Shown: one piece after another, positions 1,552 to 32,717 of the stretch | How positions within the stretch are numbered: position 1 is the first letter of the stretch | How the letters are laid out: each line of letters begins with the position of its first letter | NCBI GenBank assembly: GCA_945889495.1 | Contig: CAMDBU010000043.1 | Span: forward strand, 1 to 38,955 | Direction of reading: 5' to 3' | Length of the DNA stretch: 38,955 nt | DNA from: Syntrophobacter sp. SbD2 | Lineage (GTDB): Bacteria > Desulfobacterota > Binatia > UBA9968 | The notes under the pieces: generated by a model | The model's input: the letters and a program-made list of their open reading frames with translations, nothing else | Told to the model about the DNA's origin: nothing | The model's database searches: none | Position numbers and translations under genes: made by a program

Positions 1552-1561
1552 TGATCGGGTT

Positions 1562-3839: not shown

Positions 3840-3860
3840 GCATGAGGCAACAGGCAAAAC
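3838..3860. repeat. Iterated (n)aggca(n) short repeat, copy 2
   Basis: The units taggcat, gaggcaa and caggcaa directly follow the stop codon of the third SBP copy and match the repeat at 526-556. The two copies share both sequence and position relative to homologous gene ends, so they probably spread with the tandem duplication. Confidence 0.55.
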
Positions 3861-3886
3861 CAAGAGATCAGATTGGAGGTCGTCCG

Positions 3887-4846: not shown

Positions 4847-4875
4847 CTGGATCGCTGCAACCGGAACTCGGATTA

Positions 4876-4946
4876 TCTCGCGCCAAGCACGCAAAGACCG
4901 CAAAGGAAAGATTACGGTTTCCGAACTTGGCGAGCTTGGCGCGAGA
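4876..4946. repeat. Intergenic hairpin repeat, family A, copy 1
   Basis: The arms TCTCGCGCCAAGC (4876-4888) and GCTTGGCGCGAGA (4934-4946) are perfect reverse complements. Iterated 'GCAAAG' and 'CTTGGCG' units lie in the loop. Related elements occur at 25897-25976, 30668-30743 and 32607-32717, all between or at the edges of genes. The element separates the two paralogous SBP genes here and could fold in the mRNA. Confidence 0.75.
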
Positions 4947-5015
4947 CATTCCAAGTCGCGGCTGCGGCTTTTCGCTCTAACCAAACATGGTAGAAATCCC
5001 CAACAAGGAGATCCT

Positions 5016-5978: not shown

Positions 5979-5980
5979 GA

Positions 5981-6073
5981 ATCGTGCTCGTGACTCGTGA
6001 TCGTGTTCGTTGTCGAATCCGGAAACGAGCACGAGCCACGAGCGACGAGCACGACCCCGAGCACGAGCACGAT
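5981..6073. repeat. Hairpin built from iterated 'CGTGCTCGTGA'-like units
   Basis: The left arm (5981-6010) repeats CGTG/CTCGTGA words and the right arm (6025-6073) repeats ACGAGCACGAGC words. They are reverse complementary over most of their length, with several possible registers. The element fills the whole space between the convergent genes ending at 5978 and 6073. It could act as a bidirectional transcription barrier, but it lacks a T-run. Confidence 0.65.
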
Positions 6074-6774
6074 TAAATCGTGACCGCCACGCGAAAGCCG
6101 TAATCGGAATATTGAAACGCCGGCGGCAGCGAGCTGCGCGCGGCGCAGCGGGCGAATTTGATCTGGTGGCGCCAGGAACCGCCGCGTGAGGCGCGCCGCT
6201 CACCTGACAGCGCGCCACGGGGATTACGCTCCGGTGAATCGCGATAATAGTTGTAGTCGTAGTAGTCGCTGCACCACTCGTGCACGCCTTCGCTCATGTC
6301 GTAGAGCCCGAAGCCGTTGGCTTCATTGACGCCAACCCGCGCCGGGCCGCAGCTATCAGGATCGAAGCCAACGTAAGGCCGCAGCTCCGGAGCTTCATCT
6401 CCCCAGGGGAACAGCGCGCCATCCCGTCTGCCGCGCGCGGCATATTCCCATTCGGCTTCGCTCGGCAGACGAAATAATTTTCCAGACTCCGCGCTCAGCC
6501 ACTGGCAATAGTCCACCGCCTCGAACCAAGTCACGCCGACCACCGGCTTCAACCCATCGGCGAAACTCGGCTCGGCCCAGTATTTCGGCGCCGGCGCACC
6601 GGTGGATTGCAAATAAATTTCGTATTGCCCATGGGTCACCGGATACTTGCCCAGGCCGAAGCCGTCCACCCAGACGCGATGCACCGGCCGCTCGTTATCC
6701 TGGCCCGACTCCCAGCCCATGAGAAATGAGCCGGCGGGGATTTCGACCATCTCGGGGAATTCGGCAATAAACAT
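6073..6774 (-). CDS. Formylglycine-generating-enzyme fold (SUMF1/FGE-sulfatase) protein lacking the active-site cysteines
   Basis: This 233-residue protein shows the FGE-sulfatase fold: MVEIPAGSFLMGWE, PVHRVWVDGFGLGKYPVT, VVGVTWFEAVDYCQWLS, RLPSEAEWEYAARG, LFPWGDE, NGFGLYDMSEGVHEWCSD and the end ASRGGSW...GFRVAV. In true formylglycine-generating enzymes a pair of cysteines lies between RGGSW and the final GFR. Here that segment reads RGGSWRHQIKFARCAARS and the usual pair is not present, so sulfatase activation is unlikely. Related family members act in ergothioneine synthesis or as accessory and structural proteins. I chose the ATG at 6774; a TTG at 6810 could add twelve residues. No signal peptide is visible. 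The gene diverges from the Bug/TctC-type gene at 6869. Confidence 0.8.
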   Translation of the reverse strand: MFIAEFPEMVEIPAGSFLMGWESGQDNERPVHRVWVDGFGLGKYPVTHGQYEIYLQSTGAPAPKYWAEPSFADGLKPVVGVTWFEAVDYCQWLSAESGKLFRLPSEAEWEYAARGRRDGALFPWGDEAPELRPYVGFDPDSCGPARVGVNEANGFGLYDMSEGVHEWCSDYYDYNYYRDSPERNPRGALSGERRASRGGSWRHQIKFARCAARSSLPPAFQYSDYGFRVAVTI

Positions 6775-6868
6775 TGCGGCGAAGGTAATGCGCCGGCTGG
6801 ATAGCGTCAAGAGATTGCGCTAAATCTAGCTGAGCCTATATTGGCGCGAAGACTTTCTGGAGGCGTTC

Positions 6869-7927
6869 ATGACAAGTTGGCCGAAACATTGGTGGCGGAT
6901 AGTGGTATTGGCGGCGGCGCTGACCGAAGTCACGTTATCGCCGAACAGCAGCCTTGCCCAATCGACCCCCTTCTACAAGGATAAAACCATCCGCATCGTC
7001 GTCGGCTTCACCTCCGGCGGGCTCTACGACCAGTACGCGCGCTTGCTGGCGCGCCACATGGGCAAATACATTCCCGGCAATCCGACGATCATCGTGCAAA
7101 ACATGCCCGGCGCCGGATCGCTGAGCGCGACCAACTATCTTTACGGCGTCGCCAAACCGGACGGCCTCACCCTCGGCATGTCGGGCAGCGGCATCTATCT
7201 CGACCAATTACTCGGTCGCAAAGAAGCGATGTTCGACGTGGCGAAATTTCCCTGGATCGGCAGCGTCGACCAGCGCGATCTGGTACTCTACATGAAAGCC
7301 GACGCGCCGTGGAAGTCCATCGAAGACATCCTCGCCGCCAAGGAAGCGCCCAAGTGCGGCTCCACCGGCACCTCCGATCTGACGACGATCCTGATGAACA
7401 TCCTGGGCGACACTCTCGGCGCCAAATTTCACGAAGTGCGCGGCTATCCCGGCGGCGTCGAGATCGATCTGGCGCTGGAGAAAGGCGAAGTCCATTGCCG
7501 CGGCACCGGTCTCACCACCCACTTCGCCCGCGAGCCCTACTTCACCTGGCACAAGACCGGCTTCGACCGCCACATCGTCCAGACCGGCGCGAAAAAAGAT
7601 CCGCGTATCGCCGACGCCCCGACACTCGGCGAACTGATGGAAAAAAAGAAAACCTCAGCGCTGCCGCGCAACGTCGCCAAAGTATTGCTCGTCTCAGCCA
7701 CCGTCGGCCGACCCATGATGACCACCCCCGGCACGCCGCCCGACCGAGTGAAGCTCTTGCGCGAAGTTTATGTGAAAACTTTCAAAGACCCGCTGGTCAT
7801 CGAAGAAGCCAAACGCGCCAAGATGGATCTGGAAATCTTGACCGGCACCGAAGTCGAAGCCCAACTGCGCGACGTCATGGGGCAGCCGAAGGATGTCATT
7901 GAGAGGGTGAAGAAGCTGTCGGAGTGA
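6869..7927 (+). CDS. Bug/TctC-type tripartite tricarboxylate transporter substrate-binding protein
   Basis: The 352-residue protein starts at an ATG with GGAGG five bases upstream. It has a signal peptide (WWRIVVLAAALTEVTL...) cut near SLAQ-STP. Family signatures are FYKDKTIRIVVGFTSGGLYD, ARLLARHMGKYIPGNPTII, NMPGAGSLSATNYLYG and AKPDGLTLGM. Bug/TctC proteins bind carboxylates and related small ligands in the periplasm and normally partner with TctA/TctB membrane proteins; neither is found nearby. It is somewhat longer than the usual 300-330 residues. A second member of this family is at 32649-33779. Confidence 0.85.
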   Translation: MTSWPKHWWRIVVLAAALTEVTLSPNSSLAQSTPFYKDKTIRIVVGFTSGGLYDQYARLLARHMGKYIPGNPTIIVQNMPGAGSLSATNYLYGVAKPDGLTLGMSGSGIYLDQLLGRKEAMFDVAKFPWIGSVDQRDLVLYMKADAPWKSIEDILAAKEAPKCGSTGTSDLTTILMNILGDTLGAKFHEVRGYPGGVEIDLALEKGEVHCRGTGLTTHFAREPYFTWHKTGFDRHIVQTGAKKDPRIADAPTLGELMEKKKTSALPRNVAKVLLVSATVGRPMMTTPGTPPDRVKLLREVYVKTFKDPLVIEEAKRAKMDLEILTGTEVEAQLRDVMGQPKDVIERVKKLSE

Positions 7928-8126
7928 GCGGCGGCGCTAAAACGCGCTGGCATCGGCGTTCGTTGGCGGTGAAATGTTCATACAAATGACCAGTGCATGA
8001 AAGCTCTAAGTGTCGTCGAAAGAGTCACCATCGGTGGAATTTGTTTTGGGAGAGCAGCGATTGTAAAAGAAACTATGGAACTGCTTACCCTGGTCACGGG
8101 AATCATAAGTTAGGCGCCGAAGCTAC
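7928..8126. other. Spacer ahead of a possible gene cassette
   Basis: These 199 bases have lower GC than their surroundings and end in GTTAGGC (8109-8115), the consensus right end of an integron attC site, eleven bases before the start codon at 8127. A 38-codon open frame at 7997-8113 stops inside that heptamer. No left attC core could be placed with confidence, so nothing more definite can be said. Confidence 0.25.
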
Positions 8127-8687
8127 ATGTCTCCACCAGAACGGAAAAAATCAAATTGGTCATCCGTGAAGGCCGCACTCTCGCAGCTCAAACAGGATGA
8201 ACTGCTTGGCCTTCTGCGAGATTTGTACGAGGTCTCGCCAAGCAACAAACAGTTCATGGAAGCACGCCTGCGAATCGGCGCGAACCAGATCGCACCGTTC
8301 AAGAAAATCGTTGCCGACTACATGTACCCAGACGTCTATAAAAACCGTCCAGTGCAGATTGCCAAAGCCAAAAAGGCTATCAGCGATTATCGCAAGGCGG
8401 CCCCAAGTGATGCTTTGGGGGCGATCGATCTCATGATCTTCTTCGTCGAGTGCGGCAACCGCCTGACATGCGATTTTGGCGATATAGACGAGCCGTTCTA
8501 TGACGCGCTGCTGAGCATGTACGCGAAAGCTGTCGAGGCGGTAGTCGGGCTCCCGGAACCGGCGGCGGAGCCGTTTCGAAATAGACTCCGGGAACTCACG
8601 GAATCATCTAAAGGGATTGGCTGGGGATATCATGATGGCCTATGCGATGAGTACTATTCGGCATTCCCAGAGGAAGACAGCGAGTAG
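8127..8687 (+). CDS. Hypothetical protein, resembles DUF6155 family
   Basis: This 186-residue soluble protein has no signal peptide or membrane segment. The N-terminus (SNWSSVKAALSQLKQDELLGLLRDLYEVSPSNKQFMEARL, residues 9-48) has the pattern of short helical proteins annotated as DUF6155, where a 'K-x-L-x-x-L-x-x-E-L-x-x-L-x-x-L-Y' start is typical. A second helical part follows, and the C-terminus is acidic (EYYSAFPEEDSE). The assignment is from memory of the pattern and is tentative. There is no ribosome-binding site before the ATG. Its spacing from GTTAGGC upstream and an attC-like sequence downstream suggests that it arrived as a gene cassette. The codon third positions are less GC-biased than in the SBP genes nearby. 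Confidence 0.6.
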   Translation: MSPPERKKSNWSSVKAALSQLKQDELLGLLRDLYEVSPSNKQFMEARLRIGANQIAPFKKIVADYMYPDVYKNRPVQIAKAKKAISDYRKAAPSDALGAIDLMIFFVECGNRLTCDFGDIDEPFYDALLSMYAKAVEAVVGLPEPAAEPFRNRLRELTESSKGIGWGYHDGLCDEYYSAFPEEDSE

Positions 8688-8715
8688 TCGCTCGCAACTG
8701 ACCTGCCGAACAACA

Positions 8716-8769
8716 GGGCTAACTTCGCTAAAAGCTGTATCGGCGCGCCGTTGAGGCCGTGCGTTACCC
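8716..8769 (+). other. Possible degenerate integron attC site
   Basis: The left end GGGCTAAC (8716-8723) and right end GTTACCC (8763-8769) are near-complementary. The left core continues TTCGCTAAAAGC, close to the R''-L'' segment of known attC sites. A palindrome, CGGCGCGCCG, lies in the centre. The 54-base length is near the short end of the attC range. Open frames lie 28 bases upstream and 16 bases downstream. The right end deviates from the GTTRRRY consensus, so this is a weak call. Confidence 0.3.
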
Positions 8770-8785
8770 CTCCTGAACCTACGAT

Positions 8786-9010
8786 ATGAAACCCTTCGTC
8801 TGGATCACCGCGCTAATCCTCTCACTGCCGTTCCTCGCCGGCGCAGCGTTCACGGCCTACGATGTGATGGGCCGCGCCGACATTCTCACGAACCCGGAAT
8901 CGAAGGTGGCGGTGGGCTGGCTGTTTACCGGGCTGATGTTTCTCGGCACCGGCGTGCGCGGCTGGCGCACGCACCGGCGCGCGGCGAAAGCGACATCATC
9001 AAGGACCTAA
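8786..9010 (+). CDS. Small membrane protein, hypothetical
   Basis: This is a 74-residue protein with two predicted membrane segments: ITALILSLPFLAGAAFTAY (residues about 8-26) and VGWLFTGLMFLGTGVRGW (about 43-60), followed by a basic tail RTHRRAAK. The short loop between the segments is polar (DVMGRADILTNPESK). No family is recognised. The ATG lacks a clear ribosome-binding site, and the gene begins 16 bases after the attC-like right end, again in the manner of a gene cassette. It does not overlap any stronger reading frame. Confidence 0.5.
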   Translation: MKPFVWITALILSLPFLAGAAFTAYDVMGRADILTNPESKVAVGWLFTGLMFLGTGVRGWRTHRRAAKATSSRT

Positions 9011-9028
9011 AAACTATGATCAGCCCCG

Positions 9029-9337
9029 TCAGACCGCGATGCTAGCGTGGAACCGGAGTCCCAACGCGCGGACCACCTTGAGCACGGTCGCAAGCTCTGG
9101 GTTTCCAGTGGATGAGAGCGCCTTATAAAGACTTTCGCGTCCCAAGCCGGTCTGCCGGGCAATTTGACTCATGCCTTTCGAGCGAGCGATATCGCCTAAT
9201 GCGGCGGCGATGAGGTTCGGATCACCGTCCTCTAGCGCAGCTTCTAGATAGGCTGCCCGATCTCTTTCGGTTTTTAGATGATGAGCGGCATCCCATGGCA
9301 GAGTTTTCTTCTTCGTCTTTTTTTTTGCCGTAGCCAT
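9029..9337 (-). CDS. HTH antitoxin of the HI1420/TIGR02684 type
   Basis: The 102-residue protein is an addiction-module antidote. A lysine-rich start (ATAKKKTKKKTLPWD) leads into AAYLEAALEDGDPNLIAAALGDIARSKGMSQIARQTGLGRESLYKALS, which holds the helix-turn-helix. It ends with NPELATVLKVVRALGLRFHAS. This architecture is characteristic of the HI1420-like antitoxin, normally cotranscribed behind a RelE-fold toxin (HI1419-like). The toxin frame immediately upstream (9340-9489) has lost its first half, so this antitoxin is an orphan. It could still act as a repressor. The start at the ATG at 9337 is two bases past the toxin stop codon, consistent with the usual tight coupling. Confidence 0.85.
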   Translation of the reverse strand: MATAKKKTKKKTLPWDAAHHLKTERDRAAYLEAALEDGDPNLIAAALGDIARSKGMSQIARQTGLGRESLYKALSSTGNPELATVLKVVRALGLRFHASIAV

Positions 9338-9339
9338 CT

Positions 9340-9489
9340 TCAGTACTCCCTCACCGCCTCGATCGCATTTTTGATGTCTTTTGTCTGAGACGCCTTATCT
9401 CCACCAGCAAGCAAGATTATCAACCGATCGCCTCGTCGAGTGAAATAAATGCGATAACCGGGGCCATAGAAATTCCGATAATTTTCCAT
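9340..9489 (-). pseudogene. C-terminal remnant of a RelE-fold toxin (HI1419 type)
   Basis: The frame ending at the TGA at 9340-9342 encodes NYRNFYGPGYRIYFTRRGDR, then LIILLAGGDKASQTKDIKNA, then IEAVREY. This is the C-terminal half of the addiction-module killer protein family, in which GPGYRIYF and GGDK are hallmarks. The first half (about 50 residues, including the start) is gone. It is replaced exactly at the iterated CCATTCTCCATTATCCATTG repeat, and an in-frame TAA lies just upstream. An in-frame ATG at 9489 comes from the repeat itself. The remnant is unlikely to be active. Confidence 0.75.
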
Positions 9490-9511
9490 TCTCCATTATC
9501 CATTGTCAATT
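9484..9511. repeat. Iterated 'ATTCTCC/ATTATCC' repeat at the toxin truncation point
   Basis: The short words TTCCATTC, TCCATTAT and CCATTGTC follow one another. The same kind of run is found at 10459-10493. This copy fills the junction between the truncated toxin gene and the end of the SBP gene at 9506. Confidence 0.55.
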
Positions 9512-10468
9512 TTTCGTTTCCAGCTCTTTCCACACCGACCGGACAAACGAAAAATCACGCACGTCATCGATAGTGCGCTTCTTGTCATTGCCCAATCGAT
9601 CGATAAAACTTTCCATCTCGCTGTCGGTCATGGTGCCGTCGCGCAAAATCGATTTGAGCTCGACATCGTAGGAACGCGCGGCGATCTCGGGGGTTTGCTT
9701 GACCCATTGCAACAGCACTTTGATGGTCTCGGCACGGTTTTCGTCGATAAACCGGTTGGCGCGCAATAAGGCGCGCACGCCGCGCCGGACGAACTGGGGA
9801 TTCTCTTTGATCAGGCGCTCCGAGGTAATCATCCCCGACGCCGGCATGCCGATCTCCGGCGGGCCGGCGAGTACTTTGACGCCGGCCTTTTGCGCCATAA
9901 GATCGTGCGGCGGCGACAGCGTGGTCACCTCCACCGCGCCGGTGATGACGGACTGCAAGCGCACCGAAGTATCGCCCAGCGCCACCGGCTGCATCAGCGC
10001 CGGGTTGAGCCCTTTGGAGCGGAGCAACTCCTCGGCGACCAGATGATCGGCACCACGGATGCTCGACACGCCCAACTTCTTGCCTTTCAAATCCTGCACA
10101 TCCTTGATGCTTGGATGAGCGATCAAATAATAAACGCCCTTCTTGAACGCGACGAGAACGATCTTCAGCGGAAATCCCGAGAGAATCCCGCGCACCGTGC
10201 TGACAAACGTGCCGGTGAAGGACACGTCGCCGTTCATCAGCGCCATCACACCCAAGCGCGGATTGGCCTGAATGATCTCGACGTCCATGCCTTCGTCGCG
10301 AAAGAACCCTTTGCTGACCGCGACGTAGTAGGGCACGCTAGTATTGCTCCGGCTAGAAAACGAAATCCGCACCTTCTGCGTCTGCGCTTGAGCGATACCT
10401 CCTGCGCTTGCGACGAACAGCGTGATCAAAGCAACCAAGAACCGATGACGAATCCGAACATTCTCCAT
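9506..10468 (-). CDS. NitT/TauT-type substrate-binding protein
   Basis: The 320-residue exported protein has a signal peptide (RFLVALITLFVASAGGIAQA) and the NMT1/SsuA-like pattern VRISFSSRSNTSVPYYVAVS, KGFFRDEGMDVEIIQANPRL, VQDLKGKKLGVSS and LQSVITGAVEVTTLSPP. I chose the ATG at 10468. A TTG two codons upstream is also open, and both lie in an iterated GAGAATG repeat that supplies GAG-rich ribosome-binding sequence. It is paralogous to the gene just upstream (10502-11461), sharing NPRLG, GDVTFT/SFT, PPEIG and ELETxx at the end. It forms the third gene of a leftward run of three SBP genes. No transporter core is present. Confidence 0.85.
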   Translation of the reverse strand: MENVRIRHRFLVALITLFVASAGGIAQAQTQKVRISFSSRSNTSVPYYVAVSKGFFRDEGMDVEIIQANPRLGVMALMNGDVSFTGTFVSTVRGILSGFPLKIVLVAFKKGVYYLIAHPSIKDVQDLKGKKLGVSSIRGADHLVAEELLRSKGLNPALMQPVALGDTSVRLQSVITGAVEVTTLSPPHDLMAQKAGVKVLAGPPEIGMPASGMITSERLIKENPQFVRRGVRALLRANRFIDENRAETIKVLLQWVKQTPEIAARSYDVELKSILRDGTMTDSEMESFIDRLGNDKKRTIDDVRDFSFVRSVWKELETKN

Positions 10469-10493
10469 TCTCAATTCTCCATTCTCAATTTTG
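10459..10493. repeat. Iterated 'TTCTCAATTCTCCA' repeat overlapping a start codon
   Basis: Four near-identical units of CATTCTC/CAATTCTC occupy the 33-base gap between two SBP genes. On the coding (minus) strand they read GAGAATGGAGAATTGAGAATG. That places a purine-rich ribosome-binding sequence and the start codon of the 10468 gene within the repeat. The repeat is related to the one at 9484-9511, at the other end of the same gene. Confidence 0.6.
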
Positions 10494-10501
10494 AACCCGC
10501 G

Positions 10502-11461
10502 CTATCGCGCGGTTTCAAGCTCTTTTAGCGCTGCCCGGGCAAAGGAAAAATCCCTGACTTCATCGAGAGGCCGCTTCTTCTCGGCCAACCGTTCCATCTG
10601 AAACTCGATCTCGGCGTCGGTCATGGTGCCGTCCTTGGACAGCGCCTTGAATTCGATGTCGTAGGAGCGCGCCGCCAATTCGGGCTTCTGCTGCACGTAC
10701 TGGGTCATGATGCGGATAGTCTCATCACGGTTGGCTTCGATGTAGCGGTTGGCTCTGTGCAGCGCGCGGATGGTCCGGCGCAGGATCTGCGGCTGCTCCT
10801 TGATCAATTTGTCCGCGGCGAAAAGACCGGAAGACGGCACGCCGATCTCCGGTGGCCCGGAGATCGCCCGCAGTCCCTGGGCTTGCAGTTGGGTATCGTA
10901 GGGCGGCGGCACCGACACCGCTTGCACCACCCCCGTCACCACCGCTTGAAAACGCAATGCCGGATCACCGACGGCGATGGCCTGAACGGTGCTCGGATCG
11001 ATGCCCTTCATGCGCAAAAGCTCGCGGCCAATAATATGATCGCCACCGTTGATCGCCGTGACACCGAGTTTTTTGCCCTTGAGATCTTGCGGGTCTTTGA
11101 TCACCTCGGGGCGCACCATCAAGTAGTAGGTGCCCTTCTTCAAGAGAACGAACACGGTCTTCATCGGCAGCCCCTGAACCACGCCGCGAAAGGTCGAGAC
11201 AAAGGATGTCGTGAAGGTCACATCGCCGTTGAGCACCGCCATGGCGCCCAGGCGCGGGTTGATCTGAATGAACTCGACCTCCAGCCCCTCTTCCTTGAAG
11301 ATCCCTCTAGACTGCGCGACATAGTAGGTCGCGTTGGTGTTACTCCGACTCGACAGCGAGATGCGGATCTTTTGCAACTGCGCGTGCGCGGGAGCGAGCT
11401 GCGCTAGCAACGCGGCGGCCGCGATCCAGCCAATGACGAGTTTGCCAATTTTGATTTTCAC
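10502..11461 (-). CDS. NitT/TauT-type substrate-binding protein
   Basis: The 319-residue protein starts at a GTG at 11461, with AAGGAG seven bases upstream. This is better than the ATG at 11518, which lacks a ribosome-binding site and lies inside the upstream gene. The GTG start gives the signal peptide MKIKIGKLVIGWIAAAALLA cut near AHA-QLQ. Family features are IRISLSSRSNTNATYYVAQS, RGIFKEEGLEVEFIQINPRL, PQDLKGKKLGV and PPYDTQLQAQGL. It is the second gene of a leftward three-SBP unit, ten bases after the stop of the 12440 gene. It is clearly paralogous to the 9506-10468 product, including the C-terminal RSYDIEFKALSKDGTMTD block. Confidence 0.87.
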   Translation of the reverse strand: MKIKIGKLVIGWIAAAALLAQLAPAHAQLQKIRISLSSRSNTNATYYVAQSRGIFKEEGLEVEFIQINPRLGAMAVLNGDVTFTTSFVSTFRGVVQGLPMKTVFVLLKKGTYYLMVRPEVIKDPQDLKGKKLGVTAINGGDHIIGRELLRMKGIDPSTVQAIAVGDPALRFQAVVTGVVQAVSVPPPYDTQLQAQGLRAISGPPEIGVPSSGLFAADKLIKEQPQILRRTIRALHRANRYIEANRDETIRIMTQYVQQKPELAARSYDIEFKALSKDGTMTDAEIEFQMERLAEKKRPLDEVRDFSFARAALKELETAR

Positions 11462-11471
11462 TCGGGTCTCC

Positions 11472-12440
11472 TTATTTTCCTCGGATCTCTCTGGCGAGGG
11501 TAAAGTCCGCGACTTCATTTATCCCCACATTGGACGCTAACAACTTGGCGCGCTGGCCGACGATCTCCCAAAACGCTTTGTCGTTGCGCGGCAGGCCGTC
11601 GCTATAGGCAAACGACACGTCGCGCAGCGCGCCGGCGGCCTCGTCCTTGGACATCTTGAGCCACTGGACGATGGACGCCAGGGTGGCCGCTTCGTTGGCC
11701 GGTTGCGAGATAAAGCGGGTGGCGCGGATCAACGCGCGCAGCACCCGGCGCACCTGTTCGGGATTGTCTCTAATCGTGCGCCGCTGGGTCGACAAGCCAG
11801 CCAACGGCGCGCTGTAGACATCGCCGGCGCGAAACAACACGTTCATCCCCGCGCTACGCGCCTTCTGCGGCCAAGGCGGCACGAGAAAAGTCGCATCGGC
11901 GATGCCCTGGTGCACCATGGCGAACAGCGCCGGCGAGTCCGCCGCCGAGATCCACTTCACGTCCTTGCCAATCTCCAGATTGAAGTGGCGCGCCAAGGCC
12001 TGAAAAACCAATCCGGTAGAGCCGTTCAGATCCACCGCGTTGATGACGAAGGTCTTGCCGCGCAGGTCGGCCGGCGACTTGATCGTCGACCGAGTCACCA
12101 AATAGTGCAGCGAGCGGTCGACGAACACGCCGGCCATCTGCACCGGCGAGCCGCGCAGCGCGCTGTCAATGGGCGGCAAGAAACTCATGGTGTAGTCGAT
12201 GTGGCCGTTGGCCAGCGCCGGCGTCAGCGCGGCGGTGCGCACCTGAACGAATTTCACGTCCAAATTTTCCTGGCGAAAGAATCCTTGGTCGATGGCGACA
12301 CGGCCGGCGAGAAAGGTCAAAGTCGAGGCGGTGTAGCTGAGCGAAATCTCCTCGCCGTGAACCCAACACGGAAAAGCCGCCGACAACAGTGAAACGATCA
12401 GTATAGTGAAGCATTTAATCATAAGGTGAGCGCCGATCAT
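11472..12440 (-). CDS. NitT/TauT-type substrate-binding protein
   Basis: The 322-residue exported protein carries a signal peptide (MIKCFTILIVSLLSAAFPCW, after a six-residue extension) and the family pattern TLTFLAGRVAIDQGFFRQEN, SPADLRGKTFVINAV and VHQGIADATFLVPPWPQKAR. The ATG at 12440 has CAGGA seven bases upstream; the second ATG at 12422 does not. It is more distant from the two downstream SBP genes than they are from each other, but it shares the C-terminal 'FTLAREI' type ending seen as FSFARAALKEL in the neighbour. It is the first gene of the leftward SBP unit and diverges from the SBP gene at 12549. Confidence 0.85.
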   Translation of the reverse strand: MIGAHLMIKCFTILIVSLLSAAFPCWVHGEEISLSYTASTLTFLAGRVAIDQGFFRQENLDVKFVQVRTAALTPALANGHIDYTMSFLPPIDSALRGSPVQMAGVFVDRSLHYLVTRSTIKSPADLRGKTFVINAVDLNGSTGLVFQALARHFNLEIGKDVKWISAADSPALFAMVHQGIADATFLVPPWPQKARSAGMNVLFRAGDVYSAPLAGLSTQRRTIRDNPEQVRRVLRALIRATRFISQPANEAATLASIVQWLKMSKDEAAGALRDVSFAYSDGLPRNDKAFWEIVGQRAKLLASNVGINEVADFTLAREIRGK

Positions 12441-12548
12441 CGTGAATCCTGTTGCTTTAAATAGGTCAGTCCCGCCCCAGCGTCAAGCAGCGTAGCGAAG
12501 AGACTATTTACAATCTTCCGCCAGTTGGACTACAGTCGAGCCACCATC

Positions 12549-13571
12549 ATGAAATTTTCCCCATCGACATTTGTCTGCGCTTTGCTGTGCGCCGCGGCAG
12601 CCTCCGCCAACCATTATCTACCCAAGCCCGGCGAACGGCCGATACCGCTGCGCGTCGCCACTTCAGCGGTGACCGGCGGCTTCATCCATCTTTACGCCGC
12701 GCTCGACTACGGCATCCTGGAGAAATACGGCTTCAAGACTGAGCATATCTATATCCGCGGCCAGTCGCCGGCGCTGGCGGCCCTGGCCGCCGACCAAATC
12801 CAATTCAACTACGGCGCCGCCGACGGCAGTCTGCCCGGCATCGCCGCCGGTATCGACGCCAAGTTCGTCGCCTCGCCGTTGGTCAAGCTGCCCTACGTCA
12901 TGATCGCGCGCAAGGACATCCGCCGGCCAGAGGATTTAAAAGGCAAAGCCATCGGCGTCACTCGCCCCGGCGACCTGAGCGCGCGCTTGTCGCGCATGGT
13001 GATCCGCAAATTCGGCTTGACCAGCGACGATGTGACGATCCATCCCATCGGTGGCAGCCAGCAGGAGCGCTACCAGGCGATGGTCGGCAACGTCGTGCAA
13101 GCGATTCTAGTCACGCCGCCCCTCGACATCCGCGCCAAGAGCGACGGCTTCAACGTGATTTACCGCTTGATCGATCTGGACATCCCGTTTGTCTACAGCT
13201 CGCTCATGACCAATTACAAAATGCTCCGCGAGCGTCCAGACACCGTCCAGCGCATGGTCGCGGCGTTAGCCGAAGCGGTCCATTTCGTCGAGAAAAATCC
13301 CGACAAAGCCAAAGCCTCGGTGGCCAAAGCCATGCGGGTCAAGGACGAAGAAGCGCTGCAAAGCTCCTACAACGTCTACGCCCGCGACATCGTCGACCGC
13401 ACCATGCTCGTGCCGGGGAAATCCATCACCGAAGCCTGGGAACTCGCCCGCGACACCGGCACCATCGTCAGAAGAAAACCCGAAGAACTGTACGACAATA
13501 GCTTCGTCAATAACTTGGAGAAGAGCGGCTTCCTGAAAGAGCTCTGGGGCAACGAAAATTATCGGCGCTAG
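12549..13571 (+). CDS. NMT1/SsuA-like substrate-binding protein
   Basis: This 340-residue protein has the signal peptide MKFSPSTFVCALLCAAAASA and a mature start NHYLPKPGERPIPLRVATSA. Family features are GGFIHLYAALDYGILEKYGF, PEDLKGKAIGVTRPGDLS and IHPIGGSQQERYQAMVGN. I prefer the ATG at 12549 over a TTG at 12525 because the product then has exactly the length and signal peptide of its paralogue at 13801. The two proteins match throughout, including the last 14 residues (KELWGNENYRR versus KELWGSENYRR). A 229-base repeat-bearing spacer separates them. Ligand unknown. Confidence 0.87.
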   Translation: MKFSPSTFVCALLCAAAASANHYLPKPGERPIPLRVATSAVTGGFIHLYAALDYGILEKYGFKTEHIYIRGQSPALAALAADQIQFNYGAADGSLPGIAAGIDAKFVASPLVKLPYVMIARKDIRRPEDLKGKAIGVTRPGDLSARLSRMVIRKFGLTSDDVTIHPIGGSQQERYQAMVGNVVQAILVTPPLDIRAKSDGFNVIYRLIDLDIPFVYSSLMTNYKMLRERPDTVQRMVAALAEAVHFVEKNPDKAKASVAKAMRVKDEEALQSSYNVYARDIVDRTMLVPGKSITEAWELARDTGTIVRRKPEELYDNSFVNNLEKSGFLKELWGNENYRR

Positions 13572-13592
13572 CAATTAGCGATATTTTCCGAA

Positions 13593-13738
13593 TCCGTCAT
13601 TCCCGCGCAGGCGGGAATCCAGGTGGCGGACAAAGTCCGCCCTACCGGCGAAGGCCGGTATCCAGGCCGTGTGGATACTGTAAGATGGATGCCGGCGGGA
13701 GTTTATCCTGAGCAAGATTGAAGGGCCGGCATGACGGA
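13593..13738. repeat. Dispersed 'GTCATTCCCGC' hairpin repeat
   Basis: The motif CATTCCCGCGCAGGCGGGAA (13598-13617) is a small palindrome of a kind found dispersed in many proteobacterial genomes. Here it is the left end of a larger element: TCCGTCAT at 13594-13601 pairs with ATGACGGA at 13731-13738. Two inner hairpins lie between them (GGCGGAC...GTCCGCC near 13625-13643 and CCGGCGAAGGCCGG near 13646). It lies between two paralogous SBP genes. Confidence 0.7.
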
Positions 13739-13800
13739 GCTAATAGGGATATCGAACATGCGCCGGCTTTAGATAAACGCGCACAAGGAGTTGGCCACCG

Positions 13801-14823
13801 ATGCAGCGCAAACTTCCAGCGATCTTACTCGCGCTATTGTTTTCCGCTCCCAGTTTCGCCAGCCACTACCTACCCAAGCCCGGCGACAAGCCGGTTAATA
13901 TTCGCATCGGCACCTGCGCCATCACCGGCGGCTTCGTCCATCTCTACGCCGGCCAGGACTACGGCATATTTGAAAAGTACGGATTGAAAACCGAATCGAT
14001 CTTCATCCGCGGCAGCGGTCCGGCCTTGGCCGCGCTGGCCAGCGATGAGCTGCAATTTATTTTCTGCGCCGCCGACGGCACCATCCCCGGCATGGCCACC
14101 GGCATCGACGTCAAACTGGTCGCCTCGCCACTGGTCAAATTGCCCTACGTACTGATCGCGCGCAAGGAAATCCGCCGCGGCGAGGATTTAAAAGGCAAAG
14201 CCATCGGCATCGCCCGCGCCGGCGATCTGAGTGACAAACTCACCCGCGCGGTGATCAAGAAATTCGGCTTGACCCCCGATCAAGTATCGATCCGCCCCAT
14301 CGGCGGCAGCCAGGGCGAGCGCTACCAAGCGATGGCCGCCAACATCGTCCAGGCCGTCACGGTCACGCCGCCGCTCGACAGCCGCGCCAAAAACGCCGGC
14401 TTCAACGTCGTCTATCGCCTGATCGATCTCGACATGCCTTTCATCTACAGCTCGCTCCACACCAGCCATAAAATGCTCCGCGACCGGCCCGAGCTGGTCC
14501 AGCGCGCCGTCGCCGCCTTCGCCGAAGCGGTCCACTTCGTCGAGAAAAATCCCGACAAAGCCAAAGCGTCCATCGCCAAAGCAATGAACATGAAGGACGA
14601 GGAAGCGCTCCAGTCCTCCTACAACGTCTACGCCAAGGAAATCGTCGACCGAACCATGATCGTCCCGGCCAAATCGGTCGCCGAGTCCATCGAAAGCGCC
14701 CGCGAAGGCGGCACCACTATTCGGCGCAAAGCCGAGGAGATCTTCGACAACAGCTTCGTCAACAATTTAGAAAAGAGCGGTTTTCTAAAAGAGCTCTGGG
14801 GCAGCGAGAATTACCGGCGGTAA
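13801..14823 (+). CDS. NMT1/SsuA-like substrate-binding protein, tandem paralogue
   Basis: The 340-residue protein starts at an ATG with AAGGAG ten bases upstream and carries the signal peptide MQRKLPAILLALLFSAPSFA before SHYLPKPGDKPVN. It is colinear with the 12549-13571 product, sharing GGFVHLYAGQDYGIFEKYGL, ASPLVKLPYV, LIARKEIRRGEDLKGKAIGI, VHFVEKNPDKAKAS and KDEEALQSSYNVYAKEIVDR. The conservation over the whole length, including the tail, indicates a relatively recent duplication. It is convergent with the ATPase gene at 14853. No permease or ATPase partner is present. Confidence 0.87.
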   Translation: MQRKLPAILLALLFSAPSFASHYLPKPGDKPVNIRIGTCAITGGFVHLYAGQDYGIFEKYGLKTESIFIRGSGPALAALASDELQFIFCAADGTIPGMATGIDVKLVASPLVKLPYVLIARKEIRRGEDLKGKAIGIARAGDLSDKLTRAVIKKFGLTPDQVSIRPIGGSQGERYQAMAANIVQAVTVTPPLDSRAKNAGFNVVYRLIDLDMPFIYSSLHTSHKMLRDRPELVQRAVAAFAEAVHFVEKNPDKAKASIAKAMNMKDEEALQSSYNVYAKEIVDRTMIVPAKSVAESIESAREGGTTIRRKAEEIFDNSFVNNLEKSGFLKELWGSENYRR

Positions 14824-14831
14824 TCCGCCGG
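14814..14831. terminator. Perfect hairpin at a convergent gene end (possible terminator without T-run)
   Basis: CCGGCGG (14814-14820) and CCGCCGG (14825-14831) form a perfect seven-base stem around TAAT, overlapping the SBP stop codon. It lies in the 29-base gap between convergent genes. No T-tract follows on either strand, so it is at best a weak or factor-assisted terminator. Confidence 0.3.
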
Positions 14832-14852
14832 TTCAAGCCAGGTTCACTGGAG

Positions 14853-16157
14853 TCATTCGGCAAGAAACCAATCCACTGCGCCAACCGCCGAGACCGTTTT
14901 GGGTAGATCGCGGGAGAGCTCGGGCTCGAGAGTAATCAACACCTGCTTTGCGCCGCGGTGTTCCCGTGCCGCGGCTGCTAACGCCCGAGTTTCACGTTCT
15001 CGCGTTGTCGCGCTGTCTAAATCGGCGCAGACTTGAATGAGTTCACGTTTTGAATCTGGATAGCGCGCGAGAAAATCGACCTCATACCCATCCGCGGTCC
15101 GTACATACGAGATCTCGGCGCCGCGCCGTTCCAGTTCCAACAATACACAGGTCTCTAGGGAATGCCCCAAATTGCTCTTCCCTGACCGGTCGAAAACCGG
15201 AATTAAACCAGCATCGATGGGATAAATCTTGCGCGGATTCACCATCCGCCGCCGCTCGGAATCCGTGGCGATATACACAGCGCGAATCAAGAACGCGTCT
15301 TCCAGATGAGACAGATAGGCATGCAGAGTATCCTTAGCGACGGGCACACCTTGAGACTTGAGATCGCTCAAGAACTTACTCACACTGAAATGACTCCCAG
15401 CATTTCCCAATAAATGGCGCACCATCCAGCGGAGCGCTACCGGGTGAGAAACCGAATGCCGCTCGATAACATCGCGAATCAACGCAGTATCGACGTAGCC
15501 GCGGAGGAGCTCGAATCGATCCCTGGGTGGGACACCTTGAGCTTCCGGAAAGCCGCCCCCAGTAAGAAACTCCCTCAAGTGCTTATTGAGGGCTGAACGT
15601 TGGGACTTGGCCAGCTGCCTAAGTTTTAGATCAGGCTCTCGGCCGCAATGGCGCAGGTACTCGCGAAAACTAAACGGGTGCACAAGCGCTTCCATGGCGC
15701 GCCCTCGCATACTCGTCGCCACCTCGCGGCTAAGCAAGCGCGCTGAAGAACCGGAAATCAGCAACTCCACATGCTCGGTGTCGAGGAGCCGGCGCGCAAA
15801 GGTTTCCCATCCTTGAACAACCTGTATTTCGTCAAAAAAGAACACCGAGCGACTACGATCACGCAATTCTGGGTGTAAGCGATAGTATTCTTCAACCACC
15901 AGATGCAAATCCGAAGCTCCCAGCCCCGCCAAACGTTCGTCTTCGAAATTGAAATAAAGCAGGGCCTCTCTGGCCGTCCCTTGCGACAGGCGATCGGCCA
16001 GGACCTGCCATAAAAAAGTGGTTTTGCCGGTGCGCCGCATGCCGATGACCGCGACGGCCTTATTTTTGACCGCGGGCAGCCAAACGTCTCGGCGCGTGAA
16101 CGCTGGAACTGGCAGGGCTAACGAATCGACGATTTTTTGCCGGATGAGCTCTCGCAT
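14853..16157 (-). CDS. AAA_14/DUF4143-type P-loop ATPase
   Basis: This 434-residue protein has Walker A GMRRTGKT at residues 39-46, Walker B VFFFDEIQ with D109 and E110, and a sensor-like LISGSSARLLSRE segment. Next comes MEALVHPFSFREYLRH, typical of this class. A winged-helix-like stretch follows (FSVSKFLSDLKSQGVPVAKD, then LHAYLSHLEDAFLIRAV). The C-terminal DUF4143 part has YPIDAGLIPVF and the nuclease-fold-like GYEVDFLARYP. The function of the family is not settled. The promoter carries two palindromes, one of them overlapping the ribosome-binding site (AAGGA, next to the ATG at 16157), so expression is probably tightly regulated. It is only distantly similar to the ATPase at 1621-2781. 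Confidence 0.87.
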   Translation of the reverse strand: MRELIRQKIVDSLALPVPAFTRRDVWLPAVKNKAVAVIGMRRTGKTTFLWQVLADRLSQGTAREALLYFNFEDERLAGLGASDLHLVVEEYYRLHPELRDRSRSVFFFDEIQVVQGWETFARRLLDTEHVELLISGSSARLLSREVATSMRGRAMEALVHPFSFREYLRHCGREPDLKLRQLAKSQRSALNKHLREFLTGGGFPEAQGVPPRDRFELLRGYVDTALIRDVIERHSVSHPVALRWMVRHLLGNAGSHFSVSKFLSDLKSQGVPVAKDTLHAYLSHLEDAFLIRAVYIATDSERRRMVNPRKIYPIDAGLIPVFDRSGKSNLGHSLETCVLLELERRGAEISYVRTADGYEVDFLARYPDSKRELIQVCADLDSATTRERETRALAAAAREHRGAKQVLITLEPELSRDLPKTVSAVGAVDWFLAE

Positions 16158-16158
16158 T

Positions 16159-16177
16159 TGTCCTTATTAAAAGGACA
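16159..16177. promoter_or_regulatory. Proximal palindromic operator of the ATPase gene
   Basis: TGTCCTT (16159-16165) and AAGGACA (16171-16177) are perfect complements around the five-base loop ATTAA. On the coding strand the second arm supplies AAGGA immediately before the ATG, so a bound protein would also cover the ribosome-binding site. Its centre is 33 bases from that of the distal palindrome. Confidence 0.6.
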
Positions 16178-16205
16178 TATTATTAACTATTTGTCCTTAT
16201 GTAAA
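16177..16205 (-). promoter_or_regulatory. Candidate sigma-70 promoter of the ATPase gene
   Basis: On the minus strand TTTACA (16205-16200) as -35 and TAATAT (16182-16177) as -10 are separated by 17 bases. The -35 box lies inside the distal palindrome and the -10 box touches the proximal one. Repression by a protein bound to the palindromes would be expected. Confidence 0.5.
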
Positions 16206-16214
16206 GGACAAATA
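16188..16214. promoter_or_regulatory. Distal palindromic operator of the ATPase gene
   Basis: The arms TATTTGTCCTT (16188-16198) and AAGGACAAATA (16204-16214) are perfectly complementary over eleven bases, with a five-base centre, ATGTA. The inner seven bases are identical to those of the proximal palindrome. The 33-base centre distance is about three helical turns, so two dimers could bind on the same face of the DNA. Confidence 0.65.
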
Positions 16215-16485
16215 ATCCGAATTTCGCTGTCCGGACCGAGAGCTGTTGTGAAACGTTGGAACTGAGCACAGCGAATAAACGGCCCCTTGCAAGCTGCAAG
16301 GCATCGGGGAATTCATCTCGCACCACGTAGTTGAGTGGGTAAAGGCGCGTAACACCGATACCCACCATTCAAAACGACGGGTATCGCTTACGCTCCATCC
16401 ATCCTACTACGCTAAGACCGATCAGCCGATTCCAACCGCTTGAGCGGCGCGAAGCGTTTGAACGACCTAAACGATATGAGCGGAG
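16215..16485. repeat. Gene-free spacer with a dispersed 'GGGTATCGC' hairpin repeat
   Basis: No credible gene lies here. CGATACCCACC (around 16356-16366) and GGGTATCG (around 16379-16386) form an inverted repeat. It is followed by CTCCATCCATCCTAC, a motif familiar as a dispersed intergenic repeat in proteobacteria. The rest shows no recognisable structure. Confidence 0.5.
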
Positions 16486-17451
16486 TTATCTTGTTTGCGC
16501 CTTGCGCAGCCAGCTCATGTCTTCCAAATCGTCCGGCGTGAAGGTTTTCGCGACTTTCAACGACTCGCGGTAGATTTCGATTTCCTTTTCCACCGCGGCG
16601 CGCGGCTTGGTGCCGTCCTTGCTGTAGCCGAGCATCTGCGCCGCCATCGCTTTCTCAGCCAGCGCCAAGTCGATCTTGTGGTAAGCCGAAACATATTGCA
16701 CCACTTCGCTACGATTGGCCGGATTGAGAATGTAATTCATGGTCCGGTGCAGGGCGGCGATCATACCTTGGACTTTTTGCGGCGATTTCTTCATGGTCTC
16801 GATGGAACTCACCAGGCCGATGAAACTCAGCGGCGCGTAGGTGCGCGCCTCAGCTAACTTCACATAACCTTTGGCCTCCAACTCTTCGACATAGGGCGGA
16901 GGCAAAATGGTCGCAGCCACTCTCCTGCTGATCAGCGACTTCATCATGTTGTCGGTGACCTGGAGCGCGAGCAACGTGGCCTTGCCGGCTTCGATGCCAT
17001 GGGCACGCAGAATCGCCGCGGTCGACATTCCGGTGGCATCGGTCAAGGCATTCACACCGATAGTCTTGCCCGCCAGCTCGGCCACCGATTTGATCTCCGG
17101 CTGGCCCATCAGCACATGAACCGGATCCTGCTGGACGTAGAAAACCCGTCTGATCGGCACGCCGCGCATGATCGCGGAGGTCGCCGCGCCGGTGGTCGAG
17201 GAAAAATCCAAGTCCCCCGCCACCATCGCCGCGATCGCCGTCGGCGGCGCCATCAAGATCAACTGCGGCTCGATCTGCTCGGCGGCGAAGAAGCCCTTAT
17301 CCTTGCCGAAGTAGTACGGCATGATCGACAGACTTCTCGAAGGAATGTGAATCGACACCCGGGTCGGCGCGGCGGCGCCCTGCGCCGATTGCGCGACCGC
17401 CGTCACTGACAGAACCAACAATAAATTGCCAATCATTCTCCACGCGCGCAT
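16486..17451 (-). CDS. NitT/TauT-type substrate-binding protein
   Basis: The 321-residue exported protein starts at the ATG at 17451, with AAGGTGA upstream. Its signal peptide is MRAWRMIGNLLLVLSVTAVA, cut near QGA-AAPT. An upstream extension open to 17547 would bury the signal peptide. Family features are VSIHIPSRSLSIMPYYFGKD, KGFFAAEQIEPQLI, VAELAGKTIGVNAL and LISRRVAATILPPPYVEELE. It lies 61 bases downstream of the AhpD-like selenoprotein gene and probably ends the leftward unit that begins with the amidohydrolase at 19071. The unit suggests uptake and breakdown of one compound class. Confidence 0.85.
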   Translation of the reverse strand: MRAWRMIGNLLLVLSVTAVAQSAQGAAAPTRVSIHIPSRSLSIMPYYFGKDKGFFAAEQIEPQLILMAPPTAIAAMVAGDLDFSSTTGAATSAIMRGVPIRRVFYVQQDPVHVLMGQPEIKSVAELAGKTIGVNALTDATGMSTAAILRAHGIEAGKATLLALQVTDNMMKSLISRRVAATILPPPYVEELEAKGYVKLAEARTYAPLSFIGLVSSIETMKKSPQKVQGMIAALHRTMNYILNPANRSEVVQYVSAYHKIDLALAEKAMAAQMLGYSKDGTKPRAAVEKEIEIYRESLKVAKTFTPDDLEDMSWLRKAQTR

Positions 17452-17512
17452 CGATTCACCTTCCGTTTTTGCGGCCCATTGCGTTCTTTGCGGCCAATAA
17501 TCCGATTCCGAC

Positions 17513-18103
17513 TCACTCATGAAACTTGCTCGCCGCTGCCGCCGCAACTTCCTTGACCAGCGGCACCGGGCAGAAGCCGTGCGCCTCGACGGCGAACACC
17601 GGGTTGAACTTACTGCGGAAATTTTCCAGCGCGATGACCGCCGCCAGTTCGACCAGCTCTTCTTCGCTGAACTGCTTCTTCAACCGGGCGAAAAAGCGAT
17701 CGGTGACCCGCTTGCCGGTGTAGGTCATGCGCTCGCACAGCTCCAACGCCAATTTTTCTCTTAAGGAGAATAAAGAATTCTTTTTGTAATCGCCCAGCGC
17801 CGCTTCGACTTTGTCCGCCGACGCTCCATGTTGCATCCCACTGGATGCGTTGATGTCCAGTCAATAGGGACAACCATTGATGCTGGCGGCCTTCATGCAG
17901 AGAAGATGGCGCAGCTCGGCGCTAATCAATCCCGACGCGACGATGCCGGCTTGCAGGGCTTGCACGCCTTGCTGAATCGTCGGCCGCAGGCCGTAGACTT
18001 TCGCGGTGTTGAGAATCGTGCCGTACTGCTTTTCCTGGGCGGCGAAAACTTCCTGCACTTCTTTCGGCGCGGTTTCTTTCGATGCTCCCTTGATGCGTAG
18101 CAT
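17513..18103 (-). CDS. Carboxymuconolactone decarboxylase/AhpD-like protein, probable selenoprotein (TGA read as Sec81)
   Basis: One reading frame runs from an ATG at 18103 (GGAGG just upstream) to a TGA at 17513. A single in-frame TGA at 17861-17863 interrupts it. The 80 residues before the TGA end ASINGCPY. The 115 residues after it begin LDINASSGMQHGASADKVEA. Together they form one uninterrupted CMD/AhpD-type domain of 196 residues, and the TGA falls exactly where the second cysteine of the CxxC motif belongs. AhpD-like proteins reduce peroxides through this motif, and selenocysteine versions of the family are known. A hairpin at 17827-17855 fits a bacterial SECIS element. The following helix (residues about 110-155) contains AVIALENFRSKFNPVF. 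The gene lies 14 bases after the amidohydrolase gene. If the TGA were a stop, both halves would be non-functional. Confidence 0.8.
17827..17855 (-). promoter_or_regulatory. Putative bacterial SECIS element
   Basis: On the mRNA strand GCAUCC (17848-17843) and GGAUGC (17838-17833) form a perfect six-base stem with the loop AGUG. A lower CAU/AUG stem (17855-17853 with 17829-17827) adds three pairs across an internal loop. The loop starts 18 bases after the UGA and contains the G-U doublet typical of SelB-binding hairpins. Spacing and loop both fit the bacterial SECIS model. Confidence 0.65.
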
Positions 18104-18117
18104 AGAACCTCCCTTGG

Positions 18118-19071
18118 CTAGATTTTTAACAGCTTCGCCGCCGTGCCGCCAAGCATAGCTTCTTTCAAATGCGCCGCCAGCGGCAAGCCACGAATCTCGT
18201 CGATGTATTCATTGACCCCGGAAATATTTTTCCCCTGCGCCGGATCGCTGGCGTTGAAGTTTTGCGGATAGTCGGTGGCGAACACCAACCGCTCGGGCTT
18301 GATCACCTCCAAGGCGCAGCGCAGCGCGATGGCGCTGCCTTCGAAGCCGGCCATGTCGAAATAGAGCTGGTTGAAATAGTCGTCGAAATGCTTGGGCAAC
18401 TTGAATCGGTAGGACGAGCGCGAGATGCGCTCCTTGTAACCGGCCAAGCCGCCGCCGAAGTGGGCGAAAACGAATGCCAATTCAGGATAGCGCTCCATCA
18501 CGCCGCCGGCGATCAAGCGCGTCACCGCCACGCCGAGATCGAACTCGCGGGTGAGGATCACCGGAAACATGTAATCCTTCATCAGATCGTAGCCCTTGGG
18601 TCCCAACGCCGGATGGACAAAAATCGGCACCTTGAGCCGCTTGACGGTATCGTAGAACGGCGTGAACTCCTTGGCGTCGAGCGACAAACCATTCGCCTGC
18701 GACGAGATCGTCACGCCTTTCAAACCCAACTCAACAATCGCCCGCTCCAACTCCGCCAGCGCCGCGGCGCCACCTAGCGGCGGCAAATGGGCCAGGCCGA
18801 CAAATCGCGTTGGATAATCGCGTTGAGCTCGTGCCGTGCAGTCGTTGAGCAACTGGCAATTCTCCAGCGTGGTGTCCCAGCCGAGGATCGAGCTCTGCAC
18901 CGCGATATCGATGCCGGCGCGATCCATGTCGGCGATCTGCGCGTCGAGATCGAAAAGCTGCGAATGAATCGACGCGTCGCCGGTGCGCACCGCGTCCTTG
19001 CGTGTCGGGTCCATGCCGAGCTTACGTCCGAGCTCGGCGGGAATGTAGTGATGTTCAAAGTCGATAACCAT
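18118..19071 (-). CDS. Amidohydrolase family protein (Amidohydro_2, ACMSD-like)
   Basis: The 317-residue TIM-barrel metal hydrolase or decarboxylase starts at an ATG with GGAG six bases upstream. Putative metal and catalytic residues are H7/H8 in MVIDFEHHYIP, H153 in FVHPALGPKG, H204 in FVFAHFGGG and D267 in VFATDYPQNF. Other family blocks are DMDRAGIDIAVQSS and GLAHLPP. Members of this family hydrolyse or decarboxylate aromatic and heterocyclic acids; the substrate here is unknown. It is the first gene of a leftward unit with the AhpD-like selenoprotein gene and an SBP gene. It diverges, across 97 bases, from the SBP-hydrolase-HyuA-HyuB unit, so the two units may share a promoter region and a substrate. 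Confidence 0.85.
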   Translation of the reverse strand: MVIDFEHHYIPAELGRKLGMDPTRKDAVRTGDASIHSQLFDLDAQIADMDRAGIDIAVQSSILGWDTTLENCQLLNDCTARAQRDYPTRFVGLAHLPPLGGAAALAELERAIVELGLKGVTISSQANGLSLDAKEFTPFYDTVKRLKVPIFVHPALGPKGYDLMKDYMFPVILTREFDLGVAVTRLIAGGVMERYPELAFVFAHFGGGLAGYKERISRSSYRFKLPKHFDDYFNQLYFDMAGFEGSAIALRCALEVIKPERLVFATDYPQNFNASDPAQGKNISGVNEYIDEIRGLPLAAHLKEAMLGGTAAKLLKI

Positions 19072-19168
19072 TTGTCACTCCGCGCGACTGGCGCGCTGCT
19101 TAGGCATTGATGATTTCACCGTTCGGCCGTTTGACAGCGGTCCCATCCCGTAAGTATATCTTCTACCG

Positions 19169-20167
19169 ATGTATGACAAACTAATTTTCCTGCTCGCGAT
19201 CATCGCGCTAGCCGCGCAAGGCGCTGCCGCTCAAGAGACTAAAAAGCTCACCACGGTTCATCAAGCGATTTCGACACCCGACTTCGGCTACCTGCCGACA
19301 TTGGTCGGGCGCAGCAAAGGCATGTTCGCCCAGGAAGGCATCGACTTGAAGCTGCTGGTGCTCAGCGTGCGGGTGGCGCTGCCGGCGCTGTTGGCGAAAG
19401 AAGTTCATTTCGCCACCGCCGGTTCATCCCTGCCGGCGTCCTTGCGCGGCTCGCCGGTGAAAGCGGTGTATTTTTCCTACAAGACGTCGACCTTCCAACT
19501 GGTCGTGCGGCCGGAAATTACCAGTGGCGCCAATCTCAAAGGCAAAACCCTGTCGATCTCGACGCCGGGATCGAGCAACGATATCGCTTCCAGGCTGATG
19601 TTGAAAAAGCTCGGCTTGGAGGCCGGCCGCGATGTCAACTTACTGCCGAGCGGCGATTCCCAAGCGCGCGTCCTCGGCATGGAAACCGGCGCCATCGCCG
19701 GCTCGGCGGTCAATCCCGACGTGGCGGCTTTCCTTGCGACCAAAGGCTACCGCATCTTGATGAACTCGTCGGAGGTTTATCCCGTGCCGTTCTCGGGCAT
19801 GTCGACCCACGACGATCTGCTGCGCGATAATGCCGACTTGATCCGGCGCTGGCTACGCGCCCATGTTCGGGCCATGGTGCAAATTCGAAAGAATCCCGAA
19901 GACGCCGCGCACGTCGCCGCCAAAGAGTTGAAGATCAATCCTGACATCGCGCTGGGTGCCACCAAGTTACTGTTGCCGGCGATCGGCGCCGACGATCCCG
20001 GCGGTTTCGGCGAAACCGGCATGCGCTTGAACATGGAACTCACCGGCAGCCGCCAAGGCACCGACACCAGCAAGATTCCGATCGCGCAGGTCGCCAGCGT
20101 CAACCTGCTGCGCGAAGTCCAGCGCGAGCTCGGCATCCACTGCAAAGACGGCTACCAGTGCAAGTAG
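19169..20167 (+). CDS. NitT/TauT-type substrate-binding protein
   Basis: The 332-residue protein has a signal peptide (MYDKLIFLLAIIALAAQGAA, cut before QETK). It shows the NMT1/SsuA-like pattern FGYLPTLVGRSKGMFAQEGI, LKGKTLSISTPGSSNDIASR and LEAGRDVNLLPSGDSQAR. The two cysteines in HCKDGYQCK at the C-terminus could form a disulphide in the periplasm. The ATG has no evident ribosome-binding site, so the start may be leaderless or weakly translated. It heads a rightward unit with an isochorismatase-like hydrolase and HyuA/HyuB. That makes cyclic amides or their products plausible ligands, but this is only an inference from context. Confidence 0.84.
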   Translation: MYDKLIFLLAIIALAAQGAAAQETKKLTTVHQAISTPDFGYLPTLVGRSKGMFAQEGIDLKLLVLSVRVALPALLAKEVHFATAGSSLPASLRGSPVKAVYFSYKTSTFQLVVRPEITSGANLKGKTLSISTPGSSNDIASRLMLKKLGLEAGRDVNLLPSGDSQARVLGMETGAIAGSAVNPDVAAFLATKGYRILMNSSEVYPVPFSGMSTHDDLLRDNADLIRRWLRAHVRAMVQIRKNPEDAAHVAAKELKINPDIALGATKLLLPAIGADDPGGFGETGMRLNMELTGSRQGTDTSKIPIAQVASVNLLREVQRELGIHCKDGYQCK

Positions 20168-32579: not shown

Positions 32580-32606
32580 GTCGGTTTTTTGCAGAATCGG
32601 ATATTA

Positions 32607-32717
32607 CTCTCGCAAAGGCGCAAAGCGCGCAAAGTTCGGAGGAGAAAAATGGCGAGGTCCAGAGAAGCTCTTAACCATCACTTTCCGAACTTTGCGGCCT
32701 TGGCGTCTTTGCGAGAG
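32607..32717. repeat. Intergenic hairpin repeat, family A, copy 4, overlapping a gene start
   Basis: CTCTCGCAAAGGCGCAAAG (from 32607) pairs with CTTTGCGAGAG-type sequence ending at 32717, with flanking ATCGGATATT and TTCCGAAATCCGAT outside. The loop contains GGAGGAG and the ATG at 32649, so the 5' end of the Bug/TctC-type gene lies inside the element. A further half-arm (CGCCCTTTGCGCTTTTTGCG) follows at about 32738-32757. Confidence 0.7.

Follow-up and report, generated by a model that had tools for sequence, protein, structure and literature searches.

Locus and reading frame

The window analysed here is the whole stretch of 38,955 nucleotides of contig CAMDBU010000043.1 from Syntrophobacter sp. 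SbD2. A predicted selenoprotein gene is located on its minus strand, between the positions 17513 and 18103. The translation gives a single frame of 196 residues, from 18103 to an ordinary TGA stop at 17515-17513, with one internal TGA at codon 81 (17863-17861). This TGA, identified from the translation and from the aligned codon of the relatives, is read as the codon of selenocysteine (Sec) and closes the redox motif C78-P-Y-U81 (17861-17872) defined by the family alignment. The coordinates, the frame unbroken around a single TGA and the flanking residues INGCPY and LDINASSGMQHGAS are all as the initial annotation had given them; the strand, absent there, is the minus strand. A GGGAGG ribosome-binding site was recognized by eye ahead of the ATG (18108-18113, minus strand). 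An amidohydrolase gene (PF04909; 18118-19071, minus strand) ends 14 nt before the selenoprotein gene, and a gene for an NMT1-like substrate-binding protein (16486-17451, minus strand; start chosen by eye) follows it. The three genes are separated by short gaps, and both neighbours are probable operon partners.

With ordinary ORF calling, the gene appears as two short ORFs (17861-18103 and 17513-17836). A reassignment of UGA to Trp, Gly or another amino acid, to which the in-frame TGA retained in the lineage could point, is the least tenable reading and is excluded as a general change of the code, because UGA is also the ordinary terminator of 11 of the 29 genes of the window, this gene included, and the homologous residue is Cys rather than Trp or Gly.

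The codon of the redox site among relatives

Relatives were collected from 148 genomes of the same class and from named genome contigs (labelled as Deltaproteobacteria MAGs), which yielded a deep family. At the aligned site, the distinct sequences carry TGA (57 sequences), TGC or TGT (12 sequences) or another codon (2 sequences, both distant paralogues devoid of the CxxC motif). The in-frame UGA is consequently aligned with the redox Cys of the homologues, as expected for a selenoprotein and as claimed initially for the second Cys of the motif. All of the 40 aligned proteins share the first Cys of the motif. Neither TAA nor TAG was found at the site among the distinct relatives typed in the class, so the selenoprotein reading is not contradicted by other stop codons. 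Two genomes (G142 and G147) taken at one point for TGA forms devoid of machinery were rejected as such: the TGA is there an ordinary stop that was read through in the search, and the site codon is TGC. One MAG copy (L034:2218-2821 and L055) is interrupted after codon 104 by a stretch of unknown bases and a change of frame, which is probably an assembly fault.

The two halves of the gene are under similar purifying selection, with pn/ps values of 0.05-0.45 before the TGA and of 0.16-0.30 after it (13 relatives). These data bear on the possibility of a pseudogene, that is a Cys-form gene broken by a nonsense mutation. The two short ORFs given by the gene caller are what such a gene would present, but 57 distinct sequences from many genera retain a TGA at this codon, TAA or TAG never takes its place, and the part behind the TGA is as constrained as the part before it. 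We therefore regard a broken gene as extremely improbable, in line with the low likelihood accorded to a chance mutation in the initial annotation.

A SECIS-like hairpin behind the TGA

Within the coding sequence, 12 nt after the UGA, the segment GCAUCC-AGUG-GGAUGC (17848-17833, minus strand) folds into a SECIS-like hairpin with a 6-bp stem (GCAUCC/GGAUGC) and an AGUG loop, which is the minimum-energy fold (-9.6 kcal/mol). Its position right behind the UGA and its small G-containing loop correspond to the features of bacterial SECIS elements used for comparison (PMC1088965). The position, the six-pair stem and the loop had been correctly described before, but the evidential weight given to this single hairpin does not hold: an equally good fold arises in 32 of 200 dinucleotide shuffles (z -0.94), and the lone hairpin of the window gene was for this reason rejected as proof.

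The family is more informative when the shuffling preserves the coding, i.e. when synonymous codons are exchanged with the protein kept and typical codons used. With this procedure, the hairpin of the window gene has a p-value of 0.004. The TGA forms reach a mean z of -2.1 (57 sequences), with p ≤ 0.05 in 32 of them, whereas the mean z of the Cys forms is -0.3 and only one of the 12 sequences falls at p ≤ 0.05. Since the TGA forms are more stable than their synonymous shuffles and the Cys forms are not, the encoded protein does not explain the hairpin. The spacing between the TGA and the hairpin is constant, and the hairpin was not seen in the Cys forms as a group. A stem of at least 6 bp is present behind the TGA in 48 of the 57 TGA forms; 44 of the 57 have a loop that begins at +18, and the loops are mostly AGUG, GUC, GGU, GUG or GUU. 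The stems vary in sequence yet remain paired through compensatory changes (GCAUCC/GGAUGC, CUCUGCC/GGCAGAG, CGCCGCC/GGCGGCG, UGCUAGC/GCUAGCA). The hairpin is weaker (shuffle p 0.04-0.09) in nine relatives in which a Ser of the stem region is changed to Ala, and a few distant relatives have no outstanding hairpin. The Rfam scan of the window gave no match, which has no bearing on the hairpin because bacterial SECIS elements are short and variable.

Selenocysteine machinery and its co-occurrence with the TGA form

The source genome (5.64 Mb, 239 contigs, 95.6% complete) contains selA (614 bits), selB (411 bits) and selD (377 bits), adjoining one another on contig 26, and a tRNA-Sec gene on contig 78 (73.1 bits, anticodon UCA according to ARAGORN); with the tRNA-Sec model, the other tRNAs of this genome score up to 45 bits. 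The set selA, selB, selC and selD by which a bacterial selenoprotein is recognized is thus present, and the selenoprotein reading passes the search for this machinery that had been proposed together with it. The selD gene (L019:1501-2427, i.e. G000:C26:37215-38141) is itself of the Sec form, with an in-frame TGA in the motif AGUAAK.

The TGA form occurs in 48 of the 148 genomes, and each of the 48 contains selA with a score above the cut-off or a tRNA-Sec that scores 74 bits or more. The gene selA is over the cut-off in 45 of these genomes. It was not detected in the three others (G139, G056 and G063), where the sel genes are probably missing owing to assembly gaps, since each has a strong tRNA-Sec (74-81 bits) and G056 also has selB. 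Among the nine genomes typed as Cys-only, seven gave neither selA nor selB and no tRNA-Sec match above 52 bits; the two remaining are G094, with selA, and G059, with a partial match. The association of the TGA form with the machinery has a Fisher p-value of 1.4e-7, which is overstated as the genomes are related; more generally, the p-values overstate independence, given the common descent of the sequences and of the genomes. Five changes of the Cys label are required on the tree, at least three of them forced by well-supported branches, so that Sec and Cys have replaced each other on more than one occasion. This natural Sec/Cys series, which follows the presence or absence of the machinery, is useful for asking why Sec is retained.

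A termination at the UGA followed by re-initiation at Met91, giving two subunits or a short regulated product, would account for the ATG-started ORF of 107 amino acids found after the TGA. This scenario is hardly credible: the nine codons between the TGA and Met91 (LDINASSG) are conserved as protein, each Cys relative is one full-length protein, the site codon tracks the Sec machinery, and the two products would divide the CxxU motif between them.

Protein family and predicted fold

The protein belongs to the CMD/AhpD superfamily (Pfam PF02627, 39.6 bits for a cut-off of 23). The best curated family is NCBIfam NF053654 (GroundWater_YciW), whose profile is covered nearly in full by the residues 1-173 (E 6e-47). 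The score of 159.7 bits is below the cut-off of 310 and leaves the window protein outside this family as curated; a relative from the same class (L056) reaches 294 bits. The name of NF053654, "YciW-related (seleno)protein", marks it as a Sec/Cys family. The score against TIGR00778 (AhpD) is of 20.5-21.8 bits, under the cut-off of 27.8.

Selenoproteins of this kind have been known since 2005, when AhpD-like (COG2128, YciW) and CMD-like CxxU proteins were described from the Sargasso Sea (PMC1088965), and they are listed in reviews of 2022 (PMC9312934) and 2026 (PMC13188914). The superfamily and the Sec at the second position of the motif, the features on which the comparison was based, are common to the Sargasso Sea proteins and the window protein. 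The AhpD-like selenoprotein of the 2026 review is assigned to TIGR01926 (peroxidase-related enzyme; PMC13188914), whereas the window protein attains only 45 bits against this model and is not a member (cut-off 81.8). It represents a divergent subfamily that extends across the class and belongs to a kind of selenoprotein described before; what is already known of selenoproteins as such is unchanged.

An AlphaFold model computed with 40 family sequences as input (mean pLDDT 96.6) predicts an all-helical fold of the AhpD/"peroxidase-related" type. The top match of the structure search is the AhpD of Deinococcus radiodurans (6k40; Z 21.7, rmsd 2.4 over 181 residues), followed by the "peroxidase-related" structures 2prr, 2oyo, 2pfx and 3c1l (Z 20-21.5); matches within 1 Z are considered as tied. 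These five structures have their fold in common with the model over 178-181 residues, but their sequence identity is 14-18% and they have Cys where the window protein has Sec.

The AhpD of Mycobacterium tuberculosis carries a His, H137, at the fourth position behind the second Cys of its CxxC motif (H137F structure entry 1lw1). The window protein has Asn85 instead of the His of AhpD proper, and the 40 family proteins have N (30), G (5), H (3) or another residue (2) at this position. The detailed chemistry of AhpD is therefore not to be assumed, as Asn occupies the place of the relay His in this protein and the family does not conserve the His.

Other members of the superfamily were observed in the same genome. 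A second AhpD-like gene (L025:212-763, contig 15) likewise carries a TGA in frame at CxxU (NHCSYUTTAHGEALR), together with a 7-bp hairpin of its own and a His after the motif; its product scores 153 bits against TIGR01926, above the cut-off, and it is a probable second selenoprotein gene of this genome. Two CMD-family paralogues, L023 (contig 47) and L024 (contig 70), have neither Cys of CxxC (VEYV and AQYA).

Proposed mechanism and substrate

The product of the gene is almost certainly a selenocysteine-containing protein of the AhpD/CMD (YciW, "peroxidase-related") superfamily. This interpretation, the one put forward in the initial annotation, is supported by computed evidence of several kinds: the frame, the complete machinery, the exchange of TGA and Cys at codon 81, the conserved hairpin, the selection on both halves and the fold. 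Since two short ORFs are what ordinary annotation makes of this gene, the selenoenzymes of this widespread group (48 of 148 genomes, in a mostly uncultured class) are probably misannotated.

According to the proposed mechanism, SelB attached to the hairpin that closely follows UGA 81 would bring Sec-tRNA (anticodon UCA) to this codon, where Sec would be put in instead of termination. In the all-helical AhpD-fold product, C78 and U81 would form a selenol/thiol redox centre. The selenolate would most likely attack an oxidised substrate, for example a peroxide, C78 would resolve the intermediate as a selenenylsulfide and a thioredoxin-like partner would reduce the latter. The redox chemistry and the peroxidase-like use of the protein are deduced from homology. 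The peroxidase activity claimed initially is supported by homology only, and the relay His of AhpD is an Asn in this protein; a peroxide or a similar oxidant may be the substrate, a proposal that we hold at about even confidence.

Another chemistry is conceivable for such a class-wide subfamily of selenoenzymes, namely a substrate other than peroxide, as in a Sec-dependent reductive dehalogenase of AhpD fold. The debrominase Bmp8 (6ohi, 6ohj) is the best sequence match among the solved structures (E 2.6e-9) and a good fold match (Z 18.9), and its CxxC is aligned with the CxxU of the window protein. The lack of conservation of the AhpD relay His goes in the same direction, and Sec is used for dehalogenation by the deiodinases. 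However, Bmp8 is a Cys enzyme that shares only 22% identity with the window protein, and a likeness of substrates is conjecture; the AhpD and "peroxidase-related" structures are matched somewhat better (Z 20-21.7), and the neighbourhood gives no hint of halogenated substrates. A literature search on Bmp8 and deiodinases matched only the unrelated growth factor BMP8, and one on selenocysteine in Binatota gave a single paper of no apparent relevance. We consider a dehalogenating activity as unlikely; if true, it would parallel the Cys enzyme Bmp8 and would be convergent with the deiodinases.

Genomic neighbourhood

The amidohydrolase, selenoprotein and substrate-binding protein genes likely form a local operon. 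This order was found again in three of the 19 other loci of the close subfamily (L108, L109 and L111), which come from the same genus (two genomes) and from another genus of the family (one genome); it is absent from the 16 others, several of which are contig fragments. The operon context presented as new in the initial annotation is thus real, but it is limited to the genus and one close relative and is not the notable part of the locus. It is a weak indication of function, and as a functional clue it was rejected beyond the genus and G124, since the neighbours differ in the other relatives.

Many genes for substrate-binding proteins, NMT1-like and TctC-like, are observed in the window (538-20167 and 32589-33779), over ten by appearance, of which three were examined with Pfam. 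Some are tandem duplicates and no permease was noticed adjoining them. At the loci L113, L115 and L125, an ICL/PEP-mutase-like gene, recognized by eye, follows the selenoprotein gene.
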